Source: Lacticaseibacillus kribbianus
GTDB taxonomy: Bacteria > Bacillota > Bacilli > Lactobacillales > Lactobacillaceae
Length of the DNA: 64,000 nucleotides
Direction: 5' to 3'
Assembly (NCBI RefSeq): GCF_020180945.1
Contig: NZ_JAIPUL010000003.1
Span: forward strand, 1 to 64,000
The position numbers were made by a program, and so were the translations under genes. Below the pieces are notes generated by a model that had not been told where the DNA came from, ran no database searches, and saw only the letters and a program-made list of their open reading frames with translations. Below are positions 28,535-47,146 of the stretch, piece after piece (the first letter of the stretch is position 1; every line of letters starts with the position of its first letter).

Positions 28535-30166
28535 TTACTGAGCCTGCAGCATCGCGCTGAAGCCGATCCGGCGGGCCGGCTCAAAGGGCTGCTGCGCGCG
28601 GCGGGCAGCGGGGTCGCCGAAGTCCGCGCCGGTCAGCTCGGTCAGCGCCGCGTTGGTCGGGACGCCCCCGGCCGCGTCCAGGCGCAGTCCCTGATTGAGG
28701 ACGGCCTTTTCCAGGACGTTGCGCACGGTGCGGCCGTTGCCGAAGTTTTTGGGGTCTTGGGTCTTGATCGCCGTCAGCGCGGCGGCCAGCCGCTTCGGCG
28801 CGTCGTCGCTCAGGCGCAGCCCAAGAGATTCAAGCTGCAGGCGCGCGATCGCCACGAGCTCCTCAATCGCGTAATCGGGGAAGGGGATCTGGTACGCCAC
28901 GCGGCTGCGCAGCCCCGGGTTGGCATCGAGGAAGGTCGCCATCTCGGCCGGGTAGCCGGCGAAAATGACGACCACGTCGTCGCGGTGGTTTTCCATCTCC
29001 TGGACGATCGTGTCGATGGCCTCCTGACCGTAGCCGTGCTCGGTGACCGTCGCGTAGGCCTCGTCGATGAAAAGCACGGAGCCCGCGGCGCGCTGGAAGA
29101 GGTCCTTGACCTGCGGGGCGGTGGCGCTGACGAACTGGCTCACGACGTCGGCGCTGCCGACCTCGATCAGATCCCCGACCCGCAGCACGCCCTGGTCGCG
29201 CAGGATTTGGGCCAGGAGGCGGGCCACCGTGGTCTTGGCCGTCCCCGGGTTGCCGGTGAAGACCATGTGCATGCTGGCCTGGCGGACGGGCAGCTTGCGC
29301 GCCTTGCGCAGCTGCGCCATCTTGAAGTTGCTGACGACCTTGTTGACCAGGGCCTTCACCTCCGACAGCCCGATCAGGCCGGCGAGCTTGGCGGCGGCGT
29401 CGCTTTCGGTCGGCGCCGCGGCGCGGGCGGCCTGGGTGTCGCCGACGACGGAATAGGCGGGAAAATCGCGCTGGCGCAGCGTGTCGCCGCGCCATTTGGC
29501 GTAAACCGCCGCCAGCGCCTGGTGCCCGGTCGGAAACGCGAGGGCGGCGACGGCCGCCGTCAGCCGCTCGTCGACGGTCAGCCGGTCGAGTTCGGCCTGC
29601 TTGGTGATGTAGGCCGTCGCGCCGTCGCGCGTGAGCGCCGGAAAGCCGATCGCGACGTACAAAAGCGCGGGCATGGCGCGGCGAATCGCCGCCTGGGTGG
29701 CCCGGCTTGCCATCGGCACCTTGAAGATCACCAGCACCCGGTCGCGGTACTCGGCGATGAGCTGGGCCAGCTGCGTCAGGGCTTCAGAGGGCCCGGTGAG
29801 GGGGTTCACCAGCTCGATCACCAGGGTGCCGCCGCTGGCCGTCGCGAAGAGGTGGCGCCACGCCGTCACCGAAAAGGACAGGCCCAGGTGCGCGTTTTCG
29901 ACCACGAGGTAGCGGCGGGAGGCCAGCCAGCCCATGGCGTACTTGGCCGCCAGCATCGGGGTCAGGATCTGATCCAGCGCCGTCAGGTCTGCGGCCTCCA
30001 CCAGGTAGTCCACCGGGTGGCCGGCGCCTTGCAGGTGGCGCGTTGAGTAGATGCGGCCGACCTCCGCCTCGAGTGACGCGAGGTTCAGGCCGGCGACCTT
30101 CTGGGCCACCTCCTGGCGGGTCAACGCCGGGATCAGGTGCTCGGACAGCGGCTCGTAGGCAGACAT
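28535..30166 (-). CDS. CbxX/SpoVK-like AAA+ ATPase with degenerate first AAA domain
   Basis: This protein of 543 residues has a C-terminal CbxX/CfxQ-type AAA+ domain (about 255-540): Walker A GNPGTAKT, where Ala replaces the usual second Gly, Walker B SVLFIDEAYA, a GYPAEM segment and the pore/arginine region NPGLRSRV. The N-terminal half aligns with it by eye (YRDRVLVIFKVPMASRATQA against HRDDVVVIFAGYPAEMATFL) but lacks Walker A and the DE of Walker B, so it looks like a pseudo-ATPase copy. Related proteins remodel Rubisco-type complexes or assist type VII secretion. ATG 30166 lies 8 bases after the upstream stop. The client is unknown; the neighbouring small proteins are candidates. Confidence 0.8.
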   Translation of the reverse strand: MSAYEPLSEHLIPALTRQEVAQKVAGLNLASLEAEVGRIYSTRHLQGAGHPVDYLVEAADLTALDQILTPMLAAKYAMGWLASRRYLVVENAHLGLSFSVTAWRHLFATASGGTLVIELVNPLTGPSEALTQLAQLIAEYRDRVLVIFKVPMASRATQAAIRRAMPALLYVAIGFPALTRDGATAYITKQAELDRLTVDERLTAAVAALAFPTGHQALAAVYAKWRGDTLRQRDFPAYSVVGDTQAARAAAPTESDAAAKLAGLIGLSEVKALVNKVVSNFKMAQLRKARKLPVRQASMHMVFTGNPGTAKTTVARLLAQILRDQGVLRVGDLIEVGSADVVSQFVSATAPQVKDLFQRAAGSVLFIDEAYATVTEHGYGQEAIDTIVQEMENHRDDVVVIFAGYPAEMATFLDANPGLRSRVAYQIPFPDYAIEELVAIARLQLESLGLRLSDDAPKRLAAALTAIKTQDPKNFGNGRTVRNVLEKAVLNQGLRLDAAGGVPTNAALTELTGADFGDPAARRAQQPFEPARRIGFSAMLQAQ

Positions 30167-30174
30167 TTTGTCGA

Positions 30175-30585
30175 TCAGCCTTGCCGCGACGCCCTGAAGC
30201 CGAAGCGCACCCACCGATCGCTGTCCTGCAGGCGGTAGCTGCCCATTCGGTCGGACTCATCCAGGGCGCGCTCGAGCTCAACCTGGGTGACCTCGCTGGC
30301 CTGAACGCTGATCACCGGCACCTCCAGCGCCGCGTAGAAGCTGCGGACGAGTTGCGCCCAGTCGGTGCCGACCTCGCACACCATGACCACGGTGCTGGTG
30401 GTGGTGCTTTGATTCACAATGGCCAGCGCCCACCGCGCGCCGTTTTCCCTGGCCAGCCGGCCTTCGACGCCGGCCGCGCGCTTGTTGAACTTGCGGTAGG
30501 CGGAGTCGAGGTCATACGCGCTTGCCCCGTCGTTTTCCGGCACGCTGCCGGGCGTGACGCCAACTTTGATCTGGTAGTATAACAT
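30175..30585 (-). CDS. Unknown protein in the AAA operon (136 residues)
   Basis: I do not recognise this protein. It starts MLYYQIKVGVTPGSVPE, has a basic middle (FNKRAAGVEGRLARENG) and an alternating strand/helix pattern with a TVVMVCEVG strand, and ends in a basic tail. It has no signal peptide or membrane helix. GGGAGG precedes the ATG. It is 18 bases from the gene before and 8 from the AAA gene, so the set is cotranscribed; a client or adaptor role is inference from position. Confidence 0.65.
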   Translation of the reverse strand: MLYYQIKVGVTPGSVPENDGASAYDLDSAYRKFNKRAAGVEGRLARENGARWALAIVNQSTTTSTVVMVCEVGTDWAQLVRSFYAALEVPVISVQASEVTQVELERALDESDRMGSYRLQDSDRWVRFGFRASRQG

Positions 30586-30603
30586 GATTGCCTCCCTTGT
30601 TGA

Positions 30604-31083
30604 CTAGCGCAGGTGGGCCTGGGCCCACGCCGCGGCATTCGCATCGAGACTGATGAGATGGGAATACTCGCCATCGGTGAAGTCGCCGAGAACTTGGCCG
30701 GCCAAAAGCGCCTGGAGGGCGAGGACATCCAGCACCAGGTGATGGACGTCGTACCCGCGGGCCTTAAAGTCCTTGATGGCCTCTTGCGTCGGCAGGCGGT
30801 ACGCGGTGTGATCCGCGTACGAAAGCCCGTGGCGCGCGGCCTCCTGCACTTCGGCGGCGATGGACGCTTCGGTGAACGGGTAGCCGTGGTCGAGGTACAG
30901 GGCGCGGATGCACGCCGCCGCCACGTCCGCCGGCGCGCTGTCCGGCGCGGCTTCGCGGATGACCTGATCAACGGTTGCCTGGTTCACCTCCTGGCCATTG
31001 TGCGGCGGCAGCGGTGGCGCCAGCAGCAGGGCCGGCTTGATGGTGCGACTGAGAAGACTGCGAACTTCATACTCTTTTGCCAT
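30604..31083 (-). CDS. Unknown protein heading the AAA operon (159 residues)
   Basis: I do not recognise this protein. It starts MAKEYEVRSLLSRTIKPALL, is mostly helical by composition, and has a proline patch (APPLPPHNGQE) and a C-terminal LDVLALQALLAGQVLGD helix. It is predicted to be cytoplasmic. ACGGAGGG precedes the ATG. It is the first gene of the four-gene minus-strand unit that runs to 27840. Confidence 0.65.
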   Translation of the reverse strand: MAKEYEVRSLLSRTIKPALLLAPPLPPHNGQEVNQATVDQVIREAAPDSAPADVAAACIRALYLDHGYPFTEASIAAEVQEAARHGLSYADHTAYRLPTQEAIKDFKARGYDVHHLVLDVLALQALLAGQVLGDFTDGEYSHLISLDANAAAWAQAHLR

Positions 31084-37351: not shown

Positions 37352-40342
37352 TCAGCCCTGCACCAGCCCCGCGGCCTGCTTGGCCAGGTCGTTGGCGCGG
37401 CGCTTGGTGTCGTCCGCGGTGCCGGGACTGTAAACGAAGTGGAGAGCGATCTGCTGCGCCAGGTCCTGCATCGTCGCCTGGTACTCGCGGGTGAGCGGCT
37501 GGCTGGCGTGCCAGGCGCCGGTGACCCATTTTTCGATGCCGGCGTAGTCGTAGGCGATGGTCAGGCTGTCGGCGCCCAGGGCGATGGCGCGGCGGATGCC
37601 GGCGACGACGCCCAGCATCTGGCCGCCGAAGTCGCGCAGGGGCAGGCGGGCCTGGTCCTGGCCGGCTTCGTGCAGCGTCTCAACGGTCGCGCCGACCGTG
37701 AGAATTGCGCCGTAGCCGTAGGTGCCGGTGTGCGGGTTGAAGGCACCGTCGACCACCAGCCGTGGGCCGGCCGGGGCCTTGGGGGCGACGGCCGTGATGG
37801 CCAGGGCCCCATCGCCGGCGACGTCGGCGGTGAACTCCCGCGCCGCGTCGTTGTCAAGCAGCCGGTCGGCGAGCGGGCCGATCAGGGCCTCGGCGATGGC
37901 CCGCTCCAGCGGCCGCGCGCCCATGTCCGGGTCGTAACCCAGGTCGACCAGATGGGCCCGCGCGGCGTCGCTGAGCGTCAGCGTGATGCCGCGCTTGGCG
38001 AGGCGCTGCAGGTACGGCTTGAGCTTGAGCGCCAGAATCGGCTGCAGGGCCGCTTTGCTCAGCGGTTGGAAAGCGACGATGCTGGAGAAGCGGTTCACAA
38101 GCTCCTTGGGGAAGGTCTCCTCGAACTTCTCCTTGGAGAACACGTAGCGCCCGGCGTTGCCTTGGCCGAAGCCGACCGGGCCGCCGTCGGAGGACATGCC
38201 GGCGTTGCTGGTGAAAATCAGGATGTTGGCCGTCAGGTCGTACGTCTTGCGCAGGCCGGAGGTCAGGCGGCCCTCGTCGAGCACCTGAAGCATCAGGTTG
38301 TGCACGGCCTCGCTGGCCTTTTCGAACTCGTCGAAGAGGATGATCGCGTTGGGGTGGGCCTCAAGCGCGTTGGTCAGCCGGCCACCCTTGTCGCTGTTTT
38401 TCCAGATCGAGTCGCCGCCGATCAGCTTGTAGACGCCGTCGTCCTTGCCGGCGAACTCGGACATGTCCAGGCGGACGTACTCGGTGGTGCTGCCGTACAG
38501 GTCCAGGGCCAGCTGCTTGGCCAGCTCCGTCTTGCCGACGCCGGTGGGGCCGGCGAACAGGAAGGTGGCCAGCGGCTTGGTCGGGTCGTTGAGCCCGGTG
38601 GCCGCGCGGGCCATCGCCCGGGCGACGGCCGCGGTTGCCTCAGGCTGTCCGATCACCTGCTGGTTGAGCTTGGCCTCAAGCCCGCGCACGACGCCGCGGT
38701 CGAGCACCGCCGGCGGGAAGCTGTTGAAGCGCACGGCCATGGTCTCTTGCACCATCGCCGCGGTGATGGTCTGCTTTCGCACCGGCCCCAGCGCGTGGGC
38801 GGCGGCCACCTGGTCCAGCAGCACGAAGCATTTTTCCGGGTCGGGGAACTTGGCCAAAAGCGTCCGGGAGCCGGTGACGATGGCCTGCAGCGCGGCCGGC
38901 TCGAAGCGCACGTTGTGGGCGCGCGCGTACTTGTCGGCGTCGTGCTCGAGCAAAGTCAAGATCAGCTCGGGCTCAAGCGGGCTGAGGTGGACCACCGCCC
39001 GCGTCGCCAACAGCGTCGATTCGTCGGGGTTGACCAGGTTCAGCCGCTCGATGGTGGTGAGGCCGCCGTCTTCGGCTTCGTCGTCCTGCTGAAATCTGAC
39101 CACACGCAGGTCCGGGGCGGCAAGCGGCAGCCCGTCGCCTTTCCGGTTGAACAGCCAGACGTCGGCGAGCGCCGGCAGCCCGTCGGTGGCCATGTCCTGC
39201 GCCACCTGGCTCATCAGCAGGCGGTAGGCCAAGGGCGACTTGCCCACCACCGTGATGCCGTGGACGGTCGGGCTGGCGAGCAGCTCCTGCAGCCGCGCCG
39301 AGTCCTCGGCGAAAAAGTGGCGGTTGACCGTGCCGGGCAGCACCAGCTCGACGTCCGGGTGCGTCTCGAAAAAGGCCACGGCCGCGGCCTCGTCCGGGGT
39401 CGGCGATTCCGGCAGCATGGCCGCGTCGATCCGCACGAAGTTGATCAGCCGGTCGGGGCCGGCGGTGTAGTTGCGGTAGATCCGCGCCGCCGTCTCCATG
39501 ATCGGACCGACCGCGGCGGTGGCGTGGGCGTCTCGGGCCGCGCGCGCCGCGGCGTACGCCTTGAGCCGCGCCTGGTCCACAGGGCTGAGGGGTTCGGGCA
39601 CTTCCGCGTCGACGGCGTCCGCCAAGGCGGCGTCCGCATCGTCCGGGTCTTCCGGATCGTACAGGTCCGCCACTTCCTCTGCGGTCGGGCCGTCTGGGAC
39701 GTCGCTGGGGTCGCTGAACAGTGCGGCGGCCACGGTCTTGGCGTCGCTGTGGGCGATCAGCTCGCGCAGCTGGTGGTTGGTCTGAATCTCCCGCAGCAGC
39801 GGCTCGCTCAGGTGCTTGGCCTCAAGCAGCGGGCGCGGCAGCGTCAGCGGCTCGTGCGCGCCTTCGTCCAGCACCCAGTCCGCGGCGGTGGTCTCGCCTT
39901 GGTCGCTCAGCCCCGCGTCCGCCGGGTACTCGCGCATGAAGGCGTGCATGAAGCGGGTGGCAGCCGCGCCGGTGTAGCCCAGCGGGTTGTCAGTGGTTGT
40001 CCCCTCCACCAGCGCCTGGGTCAGGTCGGCCAGCCGCGGGTCTTCGCCCAGATGGTCGAAAATGACCCGCAGCTCCCGGGCGGCGTCGCGTCGCTGGAAC
40101 GCGTCGCGCCGGCGGTCGCTGATGACGGCGGTCAGGCGCACCATGTCGCCGCTCGTCTTGGCGTACGCGAGCTTGTGGCGCAAGACGCGTTCCTCGGCCG
40201 GCGGCGCCACCTCCAGTGCGATCAGGTGCCCGCAGTGCGGGCAGGTCATGGTGTGCAGCGCCAGGTCGGCGAACACCAGCACCTGGTCGTTGCGGTCGGC
40301 GGGCTGCCCGCAGTCCCCGCAGATAATGGCTTGAGTTGTGAT
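37352..40342 (-). CDS. Zinc-ribbon Clp/HSP100 ATPase fused to an RNase H-like domain
   Basis: This protein is about 996 residues from a proposed ATC start. Order: zinc ribbon C8-x2-C11...C34-x2-C37; a long acidic middle; a degenerate first AAA region (TVVGKSPLAYRLL); a complete ClpA/B D2 AAA+ domain (GPTGVGKT, K604; FDEFEK, D671) with a ClpB_D2-small domain; then an RNase HI-like domain from about 860 (LVVDGAFNP D865; YDYAGIE D932; NDLAK D985). The glutamate of the RNase H DEDD set is Gln908. In-frame after the last stop there is no ATG/GTG/TTG before the first CxxC; ATC codons at 40345 and 40342 follow AGGAGGGG. GTG 40282 would delete half the zinc ribbon. The role is unknown; a stress chaperone acting on nucleic-acid complexes is conceivable. 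Confidence 0.8.
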   Translation of the reverse strand: MTTQAIICGDCGQPADRNDQVLVFADLALHTMTCPHCGHLIALEVAPPAEERVLRHKLAYAKTSGDMVRLTAVISDRRRDAFQRRDAARELRVIFDHLGEDPRLADLTQALVEGTTTDNPLGYTGAAATRFMHAFMREYPADAGLSDQGETTAADWVLDEGAHEPLTLPRPLLEAKHLSEPLLREIQTNHQLRELIAHSDAKTVAAALFSDPSDVPDGPTAEEVADLYDPEDPDDADAALADAVDAEVPEPLSPVDQARLKAYAAARAARDAHATAAVGPIMETAARIYRNYTAGPDRLINFVRIDAAMLPESPTPDEAAAVAFFETHPDVELVLPGTVNRHFFAEDSARLQELLASPTVHGITVVGKSPLAYRLLMSQVAQDMATDGLPALADVWLFNRKGDGLPLAAPDLRVVRFQQDDEAEDGGLTTIERLNLVNPDESTLLATRAVVHLSPLEPELILTLLEHDADKYARAHNVRFEPAALQAIVTGSRTLLAKFPDPEKCFVLLDQVAAAHALGPVRKQTITAAMVQETMAVRFNSFPPAVLDRGVVRGLEAKLNQQVIGQPEATAAVARAMARAATGLNDPTKPLATFLFAGPTGVGKTELAKQLALDLYGSTTEYVRLDMSEFAGKDDGVYKLIGGDSIWKNSDKGGRLTNALEAHPNAIILFDEFEKASEAVHNLMLQVLDEGRLTSGLRKTYDLTANILIFTSNAGMSSDGGPVGFGQGNAGRYVFSKEKFEETFPKELVNRFSSIVAFQPLSKAALQPILALKLKPYLQRLAKRGITLTLSDAARAHLVDLGYDPDMGARPLERAIAEALIGPLADRLLDNDAAREFTADVAGDGALAITAVAPKAPAGPRLVVDGAFNPHTGTYGYGAILTVGATVETLHEAGQDQARLPLRDFGGQMLGVVAGIRRAIALGADSLTIAYDYAGIEKWVTGAWHASQPLTREYQATMQDLAQQIALHFVYSPGTADDTKRRANDLAKQAAGLVQG

Positions 40343-40451
40343 GATAAACCCCTCCTCTCATTTCAGTACGGCCCTAGCTTAGCAGAAACCGGCGGCGCTT
40401 ACCATGACGGGGCCGCACCCGGTGGCCAAGTCGGGCGCGGCAGCGCAAACA

Positions 40452-40872: not shown

Positions 40873-40963
40873 TCCTTCTAAGCAAAACCTAGCCGATTTC
40901 TAATAAAAGCCGAACGGCGGGACGACGGGCGCTGCCAAACTAATTTTGTTCGGGGGAATTTCC

Positions 40964-43900
40964 ATGAAGAAAACACACATTGCGACGCACCTTGCGATGA
41001 CGGTGATGCTCCTGTCCTCGGTCGGGGCCAACACGCTGCCGCTCGCACAGGTAATCGCCGCGACCAGTGGCAAGTCAAGCAAGATCGACTCGGCCTCCAA
41101 GGCGGCGCTGCAAAAGGCCCTGAGTCAGGCGTCCACCACCAAGACCAGCAAGAACAACGACAAGTTCAAGGCGGCGATCAAGCAGCAGCTGGCCGCCACC
41201 GGCACGGACACCAGTGACCTCACCGCCAGCCAGATCGCCAACAAGGACGTCAAGATCATCGTCACGCTGAAAAAGGACGCGGCGATTGAAGACACGGGCC
41301 GCGCGGACGGCGACGCCGCGACCTCGGCGCAGATCAAGTCCGCCACGGACAAGGTGCTGGACGCCCAACAGACCACGCAGGACAAGGTCGAGGCGATCAC
41401 CGGCAACAAGGTCAGCCAAGAGTACGGCTACCTGATCAACGGCTTTGCGATCAAGGCCTCGTTCAAGGACATCCAAAAGATCAAGGCCCTGCCGAAGGTC
41501 CAAAGCGTCTCGGTTCAAAGCCTGTACGAGAAGCAAGACGCCGCCGCCAATGAAACCGGCAACGTCGGCACCGCCTGGAACGCCGACTCCGAGCTGCCCA
41601 ACGAAGGCGAGGGCACCGCGATTGCGATCATCGACACCGGGATCGATGCCAGCCACAAGGACCTCAAGCTCAGTGAGGAGGGCACGGCCAACGAGAAGTA
41701 CACCAAGGCCGAGATGGCCGACCTGATCACGTCGAGCGGGACCAAGGGTACCTGGCTGTCCGACAAGGTGCCGTACTCCTTTGACTACGGCGACAACACC
41801 AACAAGATCTCCAAGGACAACGGCACCGGCGCGATGCACGGGATGCACGTCGCCGGGATCGCGGCGGCGGACGGCACCGCGGCCGACGACTCGGAGGAAG
41901 AAGACATCGACTACGTGCGCGGCGTGGCGCCGCAAGCGCAGCTCTTTAACATGAAGGTTTTCTCCAACTCCAACGGCGGCGGTGACTGGGACGAGGTCAT
42001 CATCAAGGCGATTGAGGACTCCGTCGCGCTCGGCGCCGACGTCATCAACATGTCCCTCGGCGGCAAGGACGGCAACACCGACACCTCCGCGCCCGAGGAG
42101 GCGGCGGTCACCGCCGCCACCCAGGCCGGCGTCGTGGTCGCCGTGGCGTCCGGCAACTCCGGCTCCTCCGACTCGAGCAACGCCTCGTCGGACTCGGCCC
42201 TGAACAACACCAACGATAACGGCCAGCAGAGCAACCCCGGCCTGACCCCGTCGGCCATCACCGTCGCGTCCTCCGACAACACGATCACGGTCAACCGCCA
42301 AGTCGCCGTGGCCGACGCCTCCGGCAAGAACATTTTCTCCGCTGACTGGGCGCAGTTCTCCCTGAACAAGTCGCCGATCACCGAGTTCGCCGGCAAGTCC
42401 CTGTACTTCGCCAAAAACGGCGAGAACGGCCTGCCGGGCTACGGCGCGACGACCGACTTCGACAGCGGCGTGAAGGGTAAGATCGCCGTGGTCGCCCGCG
42501 GCAACAACCTGGACTTCACCGTCAAGCAGAAAAACGCCCTGATGGCCGGCGCGGCCGGCGTCATCATCATCGACAACCAGCCGGCCGACGACGGCACGGC
42601 CAGCGCCTTTTCCATCAGCGAGGGCATTCCGACCATCGCGCTGCACAACTCCGACGGCCTGGCCTTCCTGAAGGCCACCGGCTTCGACGGCGGCACGGAC
42701 GGCGACTCGACCTACACCTTCTCGACCTCCCTGGCCAAAAAGGCGCAGGCGACCGGCGGCGAGATGTCCTACTTCAGCTCCATCGGCGCCTCCTCGACGC
42801 TGGACTTCAAGCCCGACATCACCGCGCCGGGCGGCGGCATCTGGTCGTTGGCCAACAACAACTCCTACCAGTCCATGAGCGGGACCTCGATGGCGACGCC
42901 TTACATCGCCGGCGCCTCCGCCCTGGTGGTCGAGGCCCTGAAGCACGAGGGGCTGTTCGGGGATGACGCCGCGGCCGCCGCGACGACGGACACCGAAGGC
43001 AAAACCATCAACGATCTGATCAACGACGCGATGAATAGCGGTCAAACGGCCGAGACGACCGACGACCAGATCCCGGCCTACGTCAAGACGCTTTTGATGA
43101 ACACCGCGACGCCAAAGCTTGATTCTGATCACCCGAACGCCGACGGCAGTGCGGCCATCATCTCGCCGCGCCTCGCCGGGGCCGGCGAGGTCAACGTGGC
43201 GGGTGCGACCAAGTCCCTGGTCGTCGCCACCAGCGCCAACGCCGCGTCCATGCAGGGCTTCCTCGCGCTGCACGAGATTAACTCTAGCGTTAAGACGCTG
43301 GGCGTCACCCTGACCAACAACGGCAAGGCGGACGCGACCTACACCTTTGACGATTACGGTGGTGTCTACACCAACGGCAACAACGACACCGATTCCGCGC
43401 AGATGTACGACAAGCAGCTGTTCGGCGCGACCCTGGCCATCACCTCCGTCAACGGCGGCGATCTGAACACCAAGGGCACCACGCAGACCATCACCGTGCC
43501 GGCCGGTTCCGCCGCCACCGTCAACATTAAGATGACGCTGCCGCTGACGCCGACGCAGTCCTTCGTCGAAGGGTACCTGGGCTTTGACGCGGTCGGCGAT
43601 ACCGACGGCGTGACGAACCTGTCCGTGCCTTACATGGGCTACTACGGCTCGTGGAACAACGACTCCAACATGTTCGCCGACACCGCGACGGACAACACCA
43701 ACCTCTTCCAGCAGAGCTACATCGGCTACTACGCCAACGGCGACACGACCGACGAGGACCAGTTCACCGCGTTTGGCCTGGACAGCGACGGCAACATTGT
43801 GGCGGACAACGTCGCGCTGTCGCCGGACTCCTCGATCAAAACGGCGACGGTGCACGCGACGCTGTACCGCAACGCCAAAGACATCCGCGGCCAGGTCTAC

Positions 43901-46900
43901 ACCAGCGACCCGACCAAGGACGCGAACGCCAAGCTTTTGCGGACCGTTTTCTACCAGGAGACGGCCTTCAAGTCCTTCGCGATGGAAAGCACCGGCGGCC
44001 AGTTCGCCCAGCTCGGCGCCGCGGCCACGTACGACCAGTCCAGCCTGAACGGCAACGCCTGGGACGGCTCGGCGACGATTAACGGCGAAACCGAAACCGT
44101 CAAGGATGGCCAGTACTACTACGTCATCTCCGCCTCCAACTGGGGCTCCGGCAACACCAACCCCGACGCCGAGCTGACGGCCGACGCCGGCGACACAACG
44201 GACACGGCGGTCACCACCAGCGACGTGTCGACGGCCGACAACGCCTTGAAGGGCAAGCACGTCACCGTGCTGCCGATCAAGGTCGACACGACCAAGCCGA
44301 CCGCGACGATCGAACAGGACGGCCTGATTCAAAATGAGGACGGCTCCTACACCGTCAAGGCCAGCCTGAAGGACAACCTGTCCGGCCTGGCGACGACCGG
44401 CAAGCTGGCCGTCGCGGTCAACGGCGTGATCAACACCGTCGACTACACGCTGGACGACCCGACCAACGACCTCGAGCAGGACGTCACCATCGACCTGACC
44501 GCGGCCCAGGCGGCGGCGATCAACACCGACACCAAAAACGACATCCAGCTGGGCGTCTACGACAACGCCGACAACTACGGCGAGCAGGACAACTACCTGA
44601 CCGTCACCAAGGCGGGCGCTGCCGCAGACGCCGACACCGCCAAGGACACCGGACTGTCGCTGTACGACCTGTACAACGGCGAGGTGATCAGCGGCAACGA
44701 CAAGGATTACAGCGCCAACAACCTGGCCTTGCGCGGCGAGTACACCGGCAAGTCCCTGTACCTGAACGGCAAGGCGATCAAGCTCGGTGACGACGGCAGC
44801 TTCGCGCAGACCGTCGCGGTGCCGACGGACGGCAAGTGGGTCTTCACGACCGACGCCGCCGGCACGGACATCATCCGCACCGTCGAAACCACGAACAAGA
44901 CCACGCCTGAGTCCGTTTTGACCCTCGACAACGACGAGATCGAAACCAGCGACAACAAGGTCGAGGTCACCGGTAAGATCTCCAACCCGGAGAACGTGGC
45001 CAAAATCACCTACACGGTCGGCTTGGGCACGGACCTGTCCTTCGACTCCGTCCTGAGCGGCCTGAGCTCGGCTTTGACCGGTGCGGCGACGAAGACCGAC
45101 ATCACCACCGACATGGCGGCTGATGGCACCTTCGACGCCAGCCTGCCGACTAGCTACGGCACCTTCAGCCTGAACATCACGGTCACCGACAAGGACGGCA
45201 ATTCCAGCATGGTCACCGCCCAGGTTGCCTCGTACGGCGACACCGATTTTGCCACCGACCCGCAGAAGCTGATCACCTCGACCGACGGCGCCAAGTTCGA
45301 CACGCCGAACGTCGTCACCTCCGCCAACTTCGGCGGCCTGGCCGTGATCCTGATGCTCGCGTCGGGCGCCAACTACGCCTCGCAGGCAGATGACGGCACC
45401 GGCACCATCAAGATCGCCGGCCGCCTGAACGCGCCGGTCGACCACTTCTACCTCAACGACGTGGACATCATCGCCGACGCCAAGGCCAAGGGCGACACCA
45501 CCGAGTACAACCCGGAGACCCGGGCGTTCTCAGTCACCCTCGACAAAATCGACCTGACCCAAAACCAGGAGATCAAGGTGCCGGCCATCGCCACCAACGA
45601 CGTGACCGACGGCTCCGGCGACTACGCCGGCGACACCACCCAAAAGATCATCACCAGCGGCTCCTACGACTTCCTGATCGACGCCACCGCGCCGAACGTG
45701 AAGTTGGACAAGGCCAAGGGTGACATCTACACCAACCAGGCGACCTACAAGCTGACCGGGACCTACGACATGGCCGCAAGCTACGTGCTGAAGATCAACA
45801 ACGACGTGATCGACGCCCAGCAGATGGGCTCCGCGCTTTTGAACACCGGCGCGACCGACACCACGACGCAAAAGACCTTCACCTACGAGTACCCGCTGAC
45901 GGTCGGCGCCAACTCGATGAACGTCACCCTGTACGACCAGCTGAACAACAGCAACACCACGACGTTCAAGGTTTACTACTACGACGCCAAGCTGAACCAG
46001 CCGACCATCAGCCAGGACACCACGGCCCTGACCGATGGCAGCGTCAAAATCACCGCCACGGCCGGTGCGGCCCTGGACGGCGCGCCGACCAACGAGAAGC
46101 GCACCGTTCAGTACAGCACGGACGGCGGCAAGACCTGGACCACGCTCAACGGCAGCCTGACCACCACGCAAAACGCCAAGCTGCAGTTCCGCACCGCCGA
46201 CCAGTACGGCAACACCTCCGACCCAGTTGAAGGGGATGTGACCAACATCGCCAAGGACGTCGCCGCGGAGGCCACCGCGAACGTGACCTACAGTGACGAC
46301 GGCACCAAGGCGACCCTGACGGCCGGCTACGATCAGGACCTGACCGAGGCCCAAAAGGCGGCCACGCACCTGCAGTACAGCACGGACGGCGGCCAGACCT
46401 GGCAGGATTACACCGCCCCGGTCACCATCGACCGGTCCGGTGACGTCCTGGTTCGCACCGAAGACGACCTCGGCCACACCGGCACGCCGGTCAAGGCCAC
46501 GATCCAGCTGAAGGCCGCAAACACCGGGACCGAAACCGGCAGCGGCAGCGAAACCGGCACCGAAACCGGCGACGGTAGCGAAAGCGGCAGCGGCACCGAA
46601 ACCGGCGACGGTAACGAAACCGGCAGCGGCACCGAAACCGGCGACGGTAACGAAACCGGCAGCGGCAGCGAAACCGGCAGCGGCAGCGAAACCGGGACCG
46701 AGACCGGCGACGGTAACGAAACCGGCAGCGGCACCGAAACCGGCAGCGGTAGCGAAACTGGCAGCAAGACCGGCAGCGAAACCGGCACCACGACCGGGAC
46801 CGCAACGGGCACCCCGAACGGCGACGCGATCGGCACCACGACCGGGACCGACGACGGCACGACAACCGGCAGCACCACCGGCACCACAACCGGGACCACC

Positions 46901-47146
46901 GCCGGCACGACCGGCAGCGCCGCAACCACCATCGCCGACGGCACCGGCGTCGCGCAGACCGGCACCGCGGCCGGCGCAACCACCGGCACGACGACGCAGA
47001 CCGCGGCCGGCTCGACCGGCAGCAAGAGTTCTGCACTGCCGCAGACCGGCGAGAAGGTCGCCGTCAACGTTGCGGTGATGGGGATCGTGATGGCGGCCGG
47101 CGCCGCCATCGCAGGCCTGTTCGGCTTCAAGCGCAAGCGGGACTAG
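40964..47146 (+). CDS. Cell-envelope subtilisin-like proteinase (lactocepin/PrtP-like), LPXTG-anchored
   Basis: This 2060-residue surface protease starts cleavage of casein-like proteins for peptide supply. In order: signal peptide (1-35), propeptide (to about 190), S8 catalytic domain with D224 (IIDTGID), H292 (HGMHVAG), N398 and S642 (GTSMATP), a PA insert (about 480-590), Fn3-like A domain, long beta-rich B region and Ig-like repeats with paired YSTDGGKTW/YSTDGGQTW motifs. A tandem Gly-Ser-Glu-Thr tract (46533-46990) forms a wall spacer, and LPQTGE (from L2025) with membrane helix and KRKRD tail is the sortase anchor. ATG 40964 follows GGGGGAA. Maturation protein PrtM is not adjacent. Confidence 0.93.
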   Translation: MKKTHIATHLAMTVMLLSSVGANTLPLAQVIAATSGKSSKIDSASKAALQKALSQASTTKTSKNNDKFKAAIKQQLAATGTDTSDLTASQIANKDVKIIVTLKKDAAIEDTGRADGDAATSAQIKSATDKVLDAQQTTQDKVEAITGNKVSQEYGYLINGFAIKASFKDIQKIKALPKVQSVSVQSLYEKQDAAANETGNVGTAWNADSELPNEGEGTAIAIIDTGIDASHKDLKLSEEGTANEKYTKAEMADLITSSGTKGTWLSDKVPYSFDYGDNTNKISKDNGTGAMHGMHVAGIAAADGTAADDSEEEDIDYVRGVAPQAQLFNMKVFSNSNGGGDWDEVIIKAIEDSVALGADVINMSLGGKDGNTDTSAPEEAAVTAATQAGVVVAVASGNSGSSDSSNASSDSALNNTNDNGQQSNPGLTPSAITVASSDNTITVNRQVAVADASGKNIFSADWAQFSLNKSPITEFAGKSLYFAKNGENGLPGYGATTDFDSGVKGKIAVVARGNNLDFTVKQKNALMAGAAGVIIIDNQPADDGTASAFSISEGIPTIALHNSDGLAFLKATGFDGGTDGDSTYTFSTSLAKKAQATGGEMSYFSSIGASSTLDFKPDITAPGGGIWSLANNNSYQSMSGTSMATPYIAGASALVVEALKHEGLFGDDAAAAATTDTEGKTINDLINDAMNSGQTAETTDDQIPAYVKTLLMNTATPKLDSDHPNADGSAAIISPRLAGAGEVNVAGATKSLVVATSANAASMQGFLALHEINSSVKTLGVTLTNNGKADATYTFDDYGGVYTNGNNDTDSAQMYDKQLFGATLAITSVNGGDLNTKGTTQTITVPAGSAATVNIKMTLPLTPTQSFVEGYLGFDAVGDTDGVTNLSVPYMGYYGSWNNDSNMFADTATDNTNLFQQSYIGYYANGDTTDEDQFTAFGLDSDGNIVADNVALSPDSSIKTATVHATLYRNAKDIRGQVYTSDPTKDANAKLLRTVFYQETAFKSFAMESTGGQFAQLGAAATYDQSSLNGNAWDGSATINGETETVKDGQYYYVISASNWGSGNTNPDAELTADAGDTTDTAVTTSDVSTADNALKGKHVTVLPIKVDTTKPTATIEQDGLIQNEDGSYTVKASLKDNLSGLATTGKLAVAVNGVINTVDYTLDDPTNDLEQDVTIDLTAAQAAAINTDTKNDIQLGVYDNADNYGEQDNYLTVTKAGAAADADTAKDTGLSLYDLYNGEVISGNDKDYSANNLALRGEYTGKSLYLNGKAIKLGDDGSFAQTVAVPTDGKWVFTTDAAGTDIIRTVETTNKTTPESVLTLDNDEIETSDNKVEVTGKISNPENVAKITYTVGLGTDLSFDSVLSGLSSALTGAATKTDITTDMAADGTFDASLPTSYGTFSLNITVTDKDGNSSMVTAQVASYGDTDFATDPQKLITSTDGAKFDTPNVVTSANFGGLAVILMLASGANYASQADDGTGTIKIAGRLNAPVDHFYLNDVDIIADAKAKGDTTEYNPETRAFSVTLDKIDLTQNQEIKVPAIATNDVTDGSGDYAGDTTQKIITSGSYDFLIDATAPNVKLDKAKGDIYTNQATYKLTGTYDMAASYVLKINNDVIDAQQMGSALLNTGATDTTTQKTFTYEYPLTVGANSMNVTLYDQLNNSNTTTFKVYYYDAKLNQPTISQDTTALTDGSVKITATAGAALDGAPTNEKRTVQYSTDGGKTWTTLNGSLTTTQNAKLQFRTADQYGNTSDPVEGDVTNIAKDVAAEATANVTYSDDGTKATLTAGYDQDLTEAQKAATHLQYSTDGGQTWQDYTAPVTIDRSGDVLVRTEDDLGHTGTPVKATIQLKAANTGTETGSGSETGTETGDGSESGSGTETGDGNETGSGTETGDGNETGSGSETGSGSETGTETGDGNETGSGTETGSGSETGSKTGSETGTTTGTATGTPNGDAIGTTTGTDDGTTTGSTTGTTTGTTAGTTGSAATTIADGTGVAQTGTAAGATTGTTTQTAAGSTGSKSSALPQTGEKVAVNVAVMGIVMAAGAAIAGLFGFKRKRD

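Follow-up and report, generated by a model that had tools for sequence, protein, structure and literature searches.

A Clp-type ATPase with a degenerate RNase H1-like tail in Lacticaseibacillus kribbianus and three related species

Clp unfoldases usually reach their substrates through N-domains and adaptors; ClpE/ClpC-type HSP100 proteins are partners of ClpP, and class I HSP100s carry two active AAA+ modules. Bacterial RNases H1 of the caulimovirus type (viroplasmin, Cauli_VI), DSY1790 (PDB 2kq2/2kw4) among them, are mostly stand-alone proteins of about 200-260 amino acids with a full catalytic set. Modules of this type have been found fused to RNase LS toxins and are proposed to aim the toxins at RNA:DNA hybrids (PMC3710099). 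In mycobacterial RelZ (MS_RHII-RSD of Mycobacterium smegmatis), an RNase HII and an alarmone synthetase share one chain, which deals with R-loops (PMC7591505). Here we analysed a stretch of 64,000 nucleotides of Lacticaseibacillus kribbianus (the window; positions 1 to 64,000 of contig NZ_JAIPUL010000003.1), whose minus strand encodes an HSP100/Clp-type ATPase with a C-terminal RNase H1-like domain. An earlier reading, made from the letters only (hereafter the sequence-only reading), had called this gene a Clp ATPase fused to an RNase H-like domain. The fusion is real: an AAA+ module and an RNase H1 fold lie in one frame, which is uninterrupted in four species at 45-53% identity. The protein is most likely an ATP-driven unfoldase, with the pseudo-RNase H tail as a targeting domain for RNA:DNA hybrids or for a protein partner.

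The window protein shares with ClpE/ClpC-type HSP100s the Walker A and B motifs, NRF and GARPL of D2 and a VGF loop at the same place (about 41% identity over D2), and may share with ClpE a zinc-ribbon-like N-terminus. It differs from them in a D1 region without Walker motifs, a replaced GYVG pore loop, the RNase H-like tail and a position outside their rows in a D2 tree; unlike class I HSP100s, the fusions have no active D1. The tail belongs to the same subfamily as the caulimovirus-type enzymes and DSY1790 and has the YDYxG...W...W signature, but it has no Cauli_VI domain, carries Asn for the fourth catalytic Asp, has lost the loop His from its place and, in two of the four fusions, has Gln for Glu. 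In the RnlA/RNase LS toxins the same RNase H subfamily is likewise joined to an effector, but there the effector is a HEPN RNase rather than an AAA+ unfoldase, and the RNase H stands at the N-terminus (PMC3710099). RelZ resembles a gene beside the fusion in two species, which seems to combine the same two functions, RNase H-type activity and alarmone synthesis; RelZ, however, has an active N-terminal RNase HII and no Clp ATPase (PMC7591505), whereas the neighbour gene has a degenerate RNase HI-like C-terminus. HSP100 and RNase H1 are known kinds; the window protein is neither a ClpE nor an active RNase H1, and the combination was without match in the literature searched. The sequence-only reading knew of no described system of this design, and our search of open-licence full texts for a Clp-RNase H fusion likewise found none.

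The fusion gene and the active site of its tail

The features of the gene are given below. Residues are counted from the first ATC, and each number is that of the sequence-only reading plus one.

37352..40345, minus strand: whole open reading frame, HSP100/Clp-type ATPase plus C-terminal RNase H1-like domain, 997 codons and a TGA stop, with orthologues in L. hulanensis, L. yichunensis and L. mingshuiensis
37355..37765, minus strand: RNase H1-like domain with a degenerate active site, D866 (37748-37750), Q909 (37619-37621), D933 (37547-37549) and N985 (37391-37393)
37820..38683, minus strand: intact D2 AAA+ module, Walker A GPTGVGKT (38528-38551), Walker B LFDE, NRF and GARPLER
38168..38176, minus strand: VGF tripeptide, candidate ClpP-docking loop, aligned with VGF of the ClpE-like and ClpC-like proteins of the window genome
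38693..39502, minus strand: degenerate D1 region without Walker A or B, in which only the lid (38756-38956, AAA_lid_9) resembles other Clps
40232..40321, minus strand: zinc-ribbon-like CxxC...CxxC (C9, C12, C35, C38), seen in the sequence, with Pfam Zn_ribbon_3 below its cut-off
40349..40356, minus strand: Shine-Dalgarno-like AGGAGGGG; next comes ATC ATC (40345-40340), at the place of the ATG of the L. hulanensis orthologue

The recognisable RNase HI fold that had been claimed for the C-terminus was borne out by structure prediction: the AlphaFold2 model of the tail reached a predicted local distance difference test score (pLDDT) of 81, and its top matches in the PDB were RNases H. The tail was aligned with 79 domains fetched from the best-ranking of the matches listed, 75 of them unfused to Clp. 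Asp is found at positions 866 and 933 in all four fusions and, at each position, in 74 of the 75 unfused relatives. Position 985, Asp in 74/75 unfused relatives, is Asn in every fusion, and the loop His of 74/75 unfused relatives is replaced at the aligned place by Glu, Glu, Ala and Thr; this loop is gapped in the alignment, and at position 972, four residues before the aligned place, a His occurs in all fusions but that of the window, which has Tyr. Glu at position 909 (74/75 unfused relatives) is Gln in the window and L. hulanensis proteins and is kept in those of L. yichunensis and L. mingshuiensis. The catalytic set therefore reads D, Q, D, N without loop His in the window protein, D-Q-D-N in one further fusion and D-E-D-N in two, and none of the four has that of an active RNase H1. 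Also kept in all four fusions are Y934, G936, W940, W945, Y955 and F970.

These data change the picture given by the sequence-only reading, which had counted three of four acidic residues as present and had made no mention of the lost loop His; the degeneration goes further than it had stated. Two of the four are present in the window protein (D866 and D933), with Q909 in place of Glu and N985 in place of the fourth Asp. The residue that had been taken for the fourth acidic one, as D985, is D986, which follows the invariant N985 and varies among the fusions (N, N, Q, D); as a fourth catalytic Asp it was rejected, since it is not conserved whereas N985 is. The Glu-to-Gln change holds for the window protein but is no family trait, being shared by two of four fusions. 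Restoration of Glu by realignment was rejected too: the window protein has no Glu in the vicinity of Q909, although homologues with Glu at that place do exist, namely the two orthologues named above. As the alignment stands, Glu-to-Gln is less general among the active-site losses than Asn985 or the change of the loop His.

The ratio of nonsynonymous to synonymous substitution rates (dN/dS) between L. mingshuiensis and L. yichunensis, a single species pair of which both members keep Glu, was 0.063 when the whole gene was compared; D2 taken by itself gave 0.055 and the tail 0.064, the latter from 6.0 nonsynonymous changes in 312.8 sites and 23.0 synonymous changes in 92.2 sites, so that in this pair the changed tail appears to be kept under purifying selection rather than decaying. 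Because the fourth Asp is Asn and the loop His is gone from its aligned place in 4/4 fusions, and because of this selection, the tail probably binds rather than cleaves, as the sequence-only reading had suggested, and on stronger grounds than that reading had. The natural series from D-E-D-N, through D-Q-D-N with a nearby His, to D-Q-D-N without it would show an RNase H turning into a binding domain.

The ATPase, its lineage and its distribution

D2 of the window protein has Walker A and B, Arg finger, sensor 2 and D2-small domain, as expected of an HSP100/Clp protein. It was aligned with four HSP100s of the window genome, whose labels (ClpE, ClpC, ClpL, ClpB) were assigned from length and sequence features. 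One intact AAA+ module is thus confirmed, and no Walker A or B was found at the aligned places of D1 in any of the four fusions, the lid being its only recognisable part. The zinc ribbon that had been proposed for the N-terminus stands as far as the CxxC pairs are concerned, which are present in the window and L. hulanensis proteins; they are missing from the L. yichunensis and L. mingshuiensis proteins, and the Pfam model stayed under its cut-off.

No ATG, GTG or TTG was found at the opening of the frame at 37352-40345, where ATC ATC follows the Shine-Dalgarno-like sequence, and ATC would be the start codon judging from this arrangement. An in-frame TGA lies just upstream of the strong Shine-Dalgarno sequence and ATC ATC (40340-40356), and either ATC serves as a rare start or the sequence contains an error. 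A standard start is first met at 40282 (GTG), and its use would cost the first Cys pair.

A tree built from 34 D2 sequences placed the four fusions on one side of a 100/100 branch, apart from the ClpE, ClpL, ClpB and ClpC rows; the program cautions that long branches can be joined falsely. A recent offshoot of ClpE was rejected on the same tree, in which the fusions have their own long branch, with the same warning. The best explanation is that the window protein is a member of a rare, separate HSP100 lineage.

The full fusion was found in 4/30 Lacticaseibacillus genomes. Searches with the tail gave matches in 18/397 genomes of the family, 62/295 of the order and 58/398 of the phylum (overlapping samples), among which only the four Lacticaseibacillus fusions were long Clp frames (792-1001 amino acids), all other frames being of at most 541. 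A scan of named GTDB contigs with the tail profile, which works by short exact patterns and may miss distant members, gave three loci, all with the same fusion: L. hulanensis ZW163, L. yichunensis 33-1 and L. mingshuiensis 117-1. With the D1 region as query, one strong further match (E 4.6e-51) was obtained in a genome of another genus of the family, 65% complete (G091; L172:6335-8932, minus strand). Its product has the N-terminal cysteine pairs, the D1 region and D2, and ends after D2 without an RNase H; the gene is broken by one in-frame stop. This tail-less relative indicates that the HSP100 lineage and the tail are separable. Its gene adjoins a permease gene of the same kind as that beside the window gene. 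Among 295 genomes of the order, the D1-region search returned nothing above the general Clp background except two known fusions.

The tail was also searched by tblastn in phages (matches in 62/50,697 records) and plasmids (15/72,556). All of them were RNases H of less than 60% identity, the best, MT839238, being a stand-alone RNase H. Neither the full protein in phages nor the part without the tail in plasmids gave a place covering 80% of the query, and no hit was confirmed when viral contigs were scanned with the tail or the D1 region. Since the fusion turned up in none of these searches of phages, plasmids and viral contigs, an origin from a phage or plasmid was rejected.

The unfused relatives are mostly 200-260 amino acids long, and their start resembles the Cauli_VI domain by eye. 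One relative within the family (L048:670-2100, minus strand) is a 477-residue fusion of Cauli_VI, RNase H and an RnlA-type toxin (Cauli_VI, RNase_H, RnlA-toxin_DBD). Another in the family, an RNase H protein of 492 residues (L049:577-2052, minus strand), has changed residues (N, E, S, K) at several catalytic positions.

Proposed mechanism and alternative readings

We propose that the protein would act as a single active AAA+ ring, presumably a hexamer, in which D2 would hydrolyse ATP and pull on protein substrates and D1 would be structural only. The tail, with its RNase H1 fold, two catalytic Asp and conserved aromatics but not the full catalytic set, would bind without cleaving and, as a module for targeting or sensing, direct the unfoldase to its substrates. 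The simplest ligand would be RNA:DNA hybrids, as in R-loops, in stalled transcription or replication complexes or in incoming elements; the other candidate is a partner protein. Extraction of the substrate would follow, perhaps with its delivery to ClpP, a gene for which was found in the window genome. An unfoldase with a built-in, conserved pseudo-RNase H would directly link RNA:DNA hybrids, or an RNase H-type protein interface, to protein unfolding.

Several observations weigh against this proposal. S868 is Ala in all four fusions and position 905, Asn or Gln in 74/75 unfused relatives, is Asp in all four, so that the contacts to nucleic acid may differ too and a protein could equally well be the ligand. 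A tail of strongly basic character was rejected, since its net charge is -2, +5, +4 and +2 in the four fusions and has a median of -1 among the unfused relatives. The hybrid-binding N-terminal domain Cauli_VI (PF01693) gave no match in the window protein at E values up to 1, whereas the one relative scanned, L048, matched at 4.4e-17. The canonical GYVG pore loop is replaced in the fusions (IWK, VWT, VYK) and translocation is therefore not assured. The candidate docking loop reads VGF, AGF, MGF and VGF in the four fusions (AGF in L. hulanensis), and the ClpL-like protein of the window genome also has GFG there, so that the loop gives no more than a hint of ClpP docking. The full-length AlphaFold2 model was poor (pLDDT 53). 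Finally, no gene neighbour is common to the three unrelated settings of the fusion, which suggests that the protein probably acts by itself or has its partners encoded at other loci.

The retained fold, the two Asp and the aromatics, together with the RNase LS and RelZ precedents, speak for a hybrid ligand, and we tentatively take the tail to target RNA:DNA hybrids or hybrid-bound complexes, with a confidence somewhat short of even. It is possible, if doubtful, that the tail is instead a protein-protein adaptor in which nucleic acid has no part; its target would be a substrate protein, a regulator of antitoxin type or an RNase H-like counterpart, for example that of the RelA/SpoT neighbour. 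The substrate-face changes D905 and A868 of all four fusions would fit such an adaptor, and so would the RNase H-like tail, a weak match, of the divergent neighbour in L. yichunensis and L. mingshuiensis; these two species, however, are close sisters in which the Clp-RelA pairing may be plain inheritance, this neighbour is found neither in the window nor in L. hulanensis, and the fusions retain aromatic residues typical of unfused RNases H. That the tail is still a weak or altered nuclease, coupling unfolding to hybrid cleavage, we consider unlikely. The two Asp kept in 4/4 fusions, the Glu kept in 2/4 and the His at position 972, which in three fusions might be a relocated one, point towards activity, and the D134N variant of E. 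coli RNase HI keeps much of its activity, but the window protein is without Glu, loop His, relocated His (Tyr972) and fourth Asp together, and the positions of Glu, loop His and fourth Asp are conserved in 74/75 unfused relatives.

A role as anti-phage or toxin-antitoxin component, with the tail sensing phage replication intermediates, overlaps these readings and is likewise improbable. In L. hulanensis, the gene is found past pglZ and brxL of a bacteriophage exclusion (BREX) locus and in the same orientation, the fusion is patchily distributed, and the relative L048 is an RNase H-RnlA toxin fusion. Against these points, the PADLOC matches DolB and PDC-M37B concern the AAA region only, the window setting is that of an ordinary chromosome (xanthine/uracil-type permease, S8 protease, glpK), the third-position GC content of the gene matches that of its neighbours, and phages, plasmids and viral contigs yielded no copy of the fusion. 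A decaying gene or a chance fusion without function would agree with the non-standard ATC start in the window and with the in-frame stop in the tail-less relative of G091; the low dN/dS of the one species pair, in the tail as in the whole gene, the uninterrupted frame of the four diverged orthologues and the intact D2 motifs make it very improbable indeed.

Gene neighbourhoods and further observations

The window gene has a xanthine/uracil-type permease gene on one side and an S8 protease gene on the other, with glpK also nearby, and its GC content at third codon positions (GC3) is 0.922, against 0.89-0.92 for four measured neighbours on the same stretch and glpK/glpO. The PADLOC matches of its product, all confined to the AAA region, were DolB, PDC-M37B and mad8. 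In L. hulanensis, the fusion gene lies on the same strand beyond the BREX genes pglZ and brxL (PglZ, E 4.1e-47; BrxL_ATPase, E 7.6e-142) and a 356-residue gene without a family over the cut-off. In L. yichunensis and L. mingshuiensis, it is divergent from a RelA_SpoT gene (RelA_SpoT, E 5.9e-12), located as follows.

L034:11423-12577, plus strand: RelA_SpoT-domain protein with a C-terminal degenerate RNase H-like region, L. mingshuiensis
L035:6749-7903, minus strand: RelA_SpoT-domain protein with a C-terminal degenerate RNase H-like region, L. yichunensis

The C-terminal third of this neighbour matched the RNase H profile weakly in a single comparison (hhalign probability 85.5%, E 5.7e-6). Among 1,223 open reading frames it scored E 0.0067 with that profile, and apart from the fusions no other frame fell below E 1. 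A second profile contained the RelA tails, and the scores obtained there were circular and not used. This tail showed 0 nonsynonymous changes in 300.3 sites between the two species. Full-length matches to the neighbour were obtained in 2/30 genomes of the genus. It is conceivable, although quite unlikely, that a pseudo-RNase H is the recognition tag common to a small Lacticaseibacillus surveillance system, in which the tag would aim the Clp unfoldase at R-loops or at complexes bound to hybrids. A divergent RelA/SpoT synthetase would carry a second tag of this kind in two species, so that hybrid stress would lead to protein extraction and an alarmone signal.

Elsewhere in the window, a compact cluster on the minus strand (28535-31083) holds two small open reading frames without Pfam families over the cut-off and a 559-residue SpoVK/CbbX/EccA-like AAA+ protein (below family cut-offs), whose N-terminal half was unmatched. 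The S8 protease beside the fusion gene (40946-47146, plus strand) is a subtilase of 2066 residues with Fn3-like and PA domains, a long Gly/Ser/Thr/Glu-rich repeat and an LPQTG-type C-terminus.

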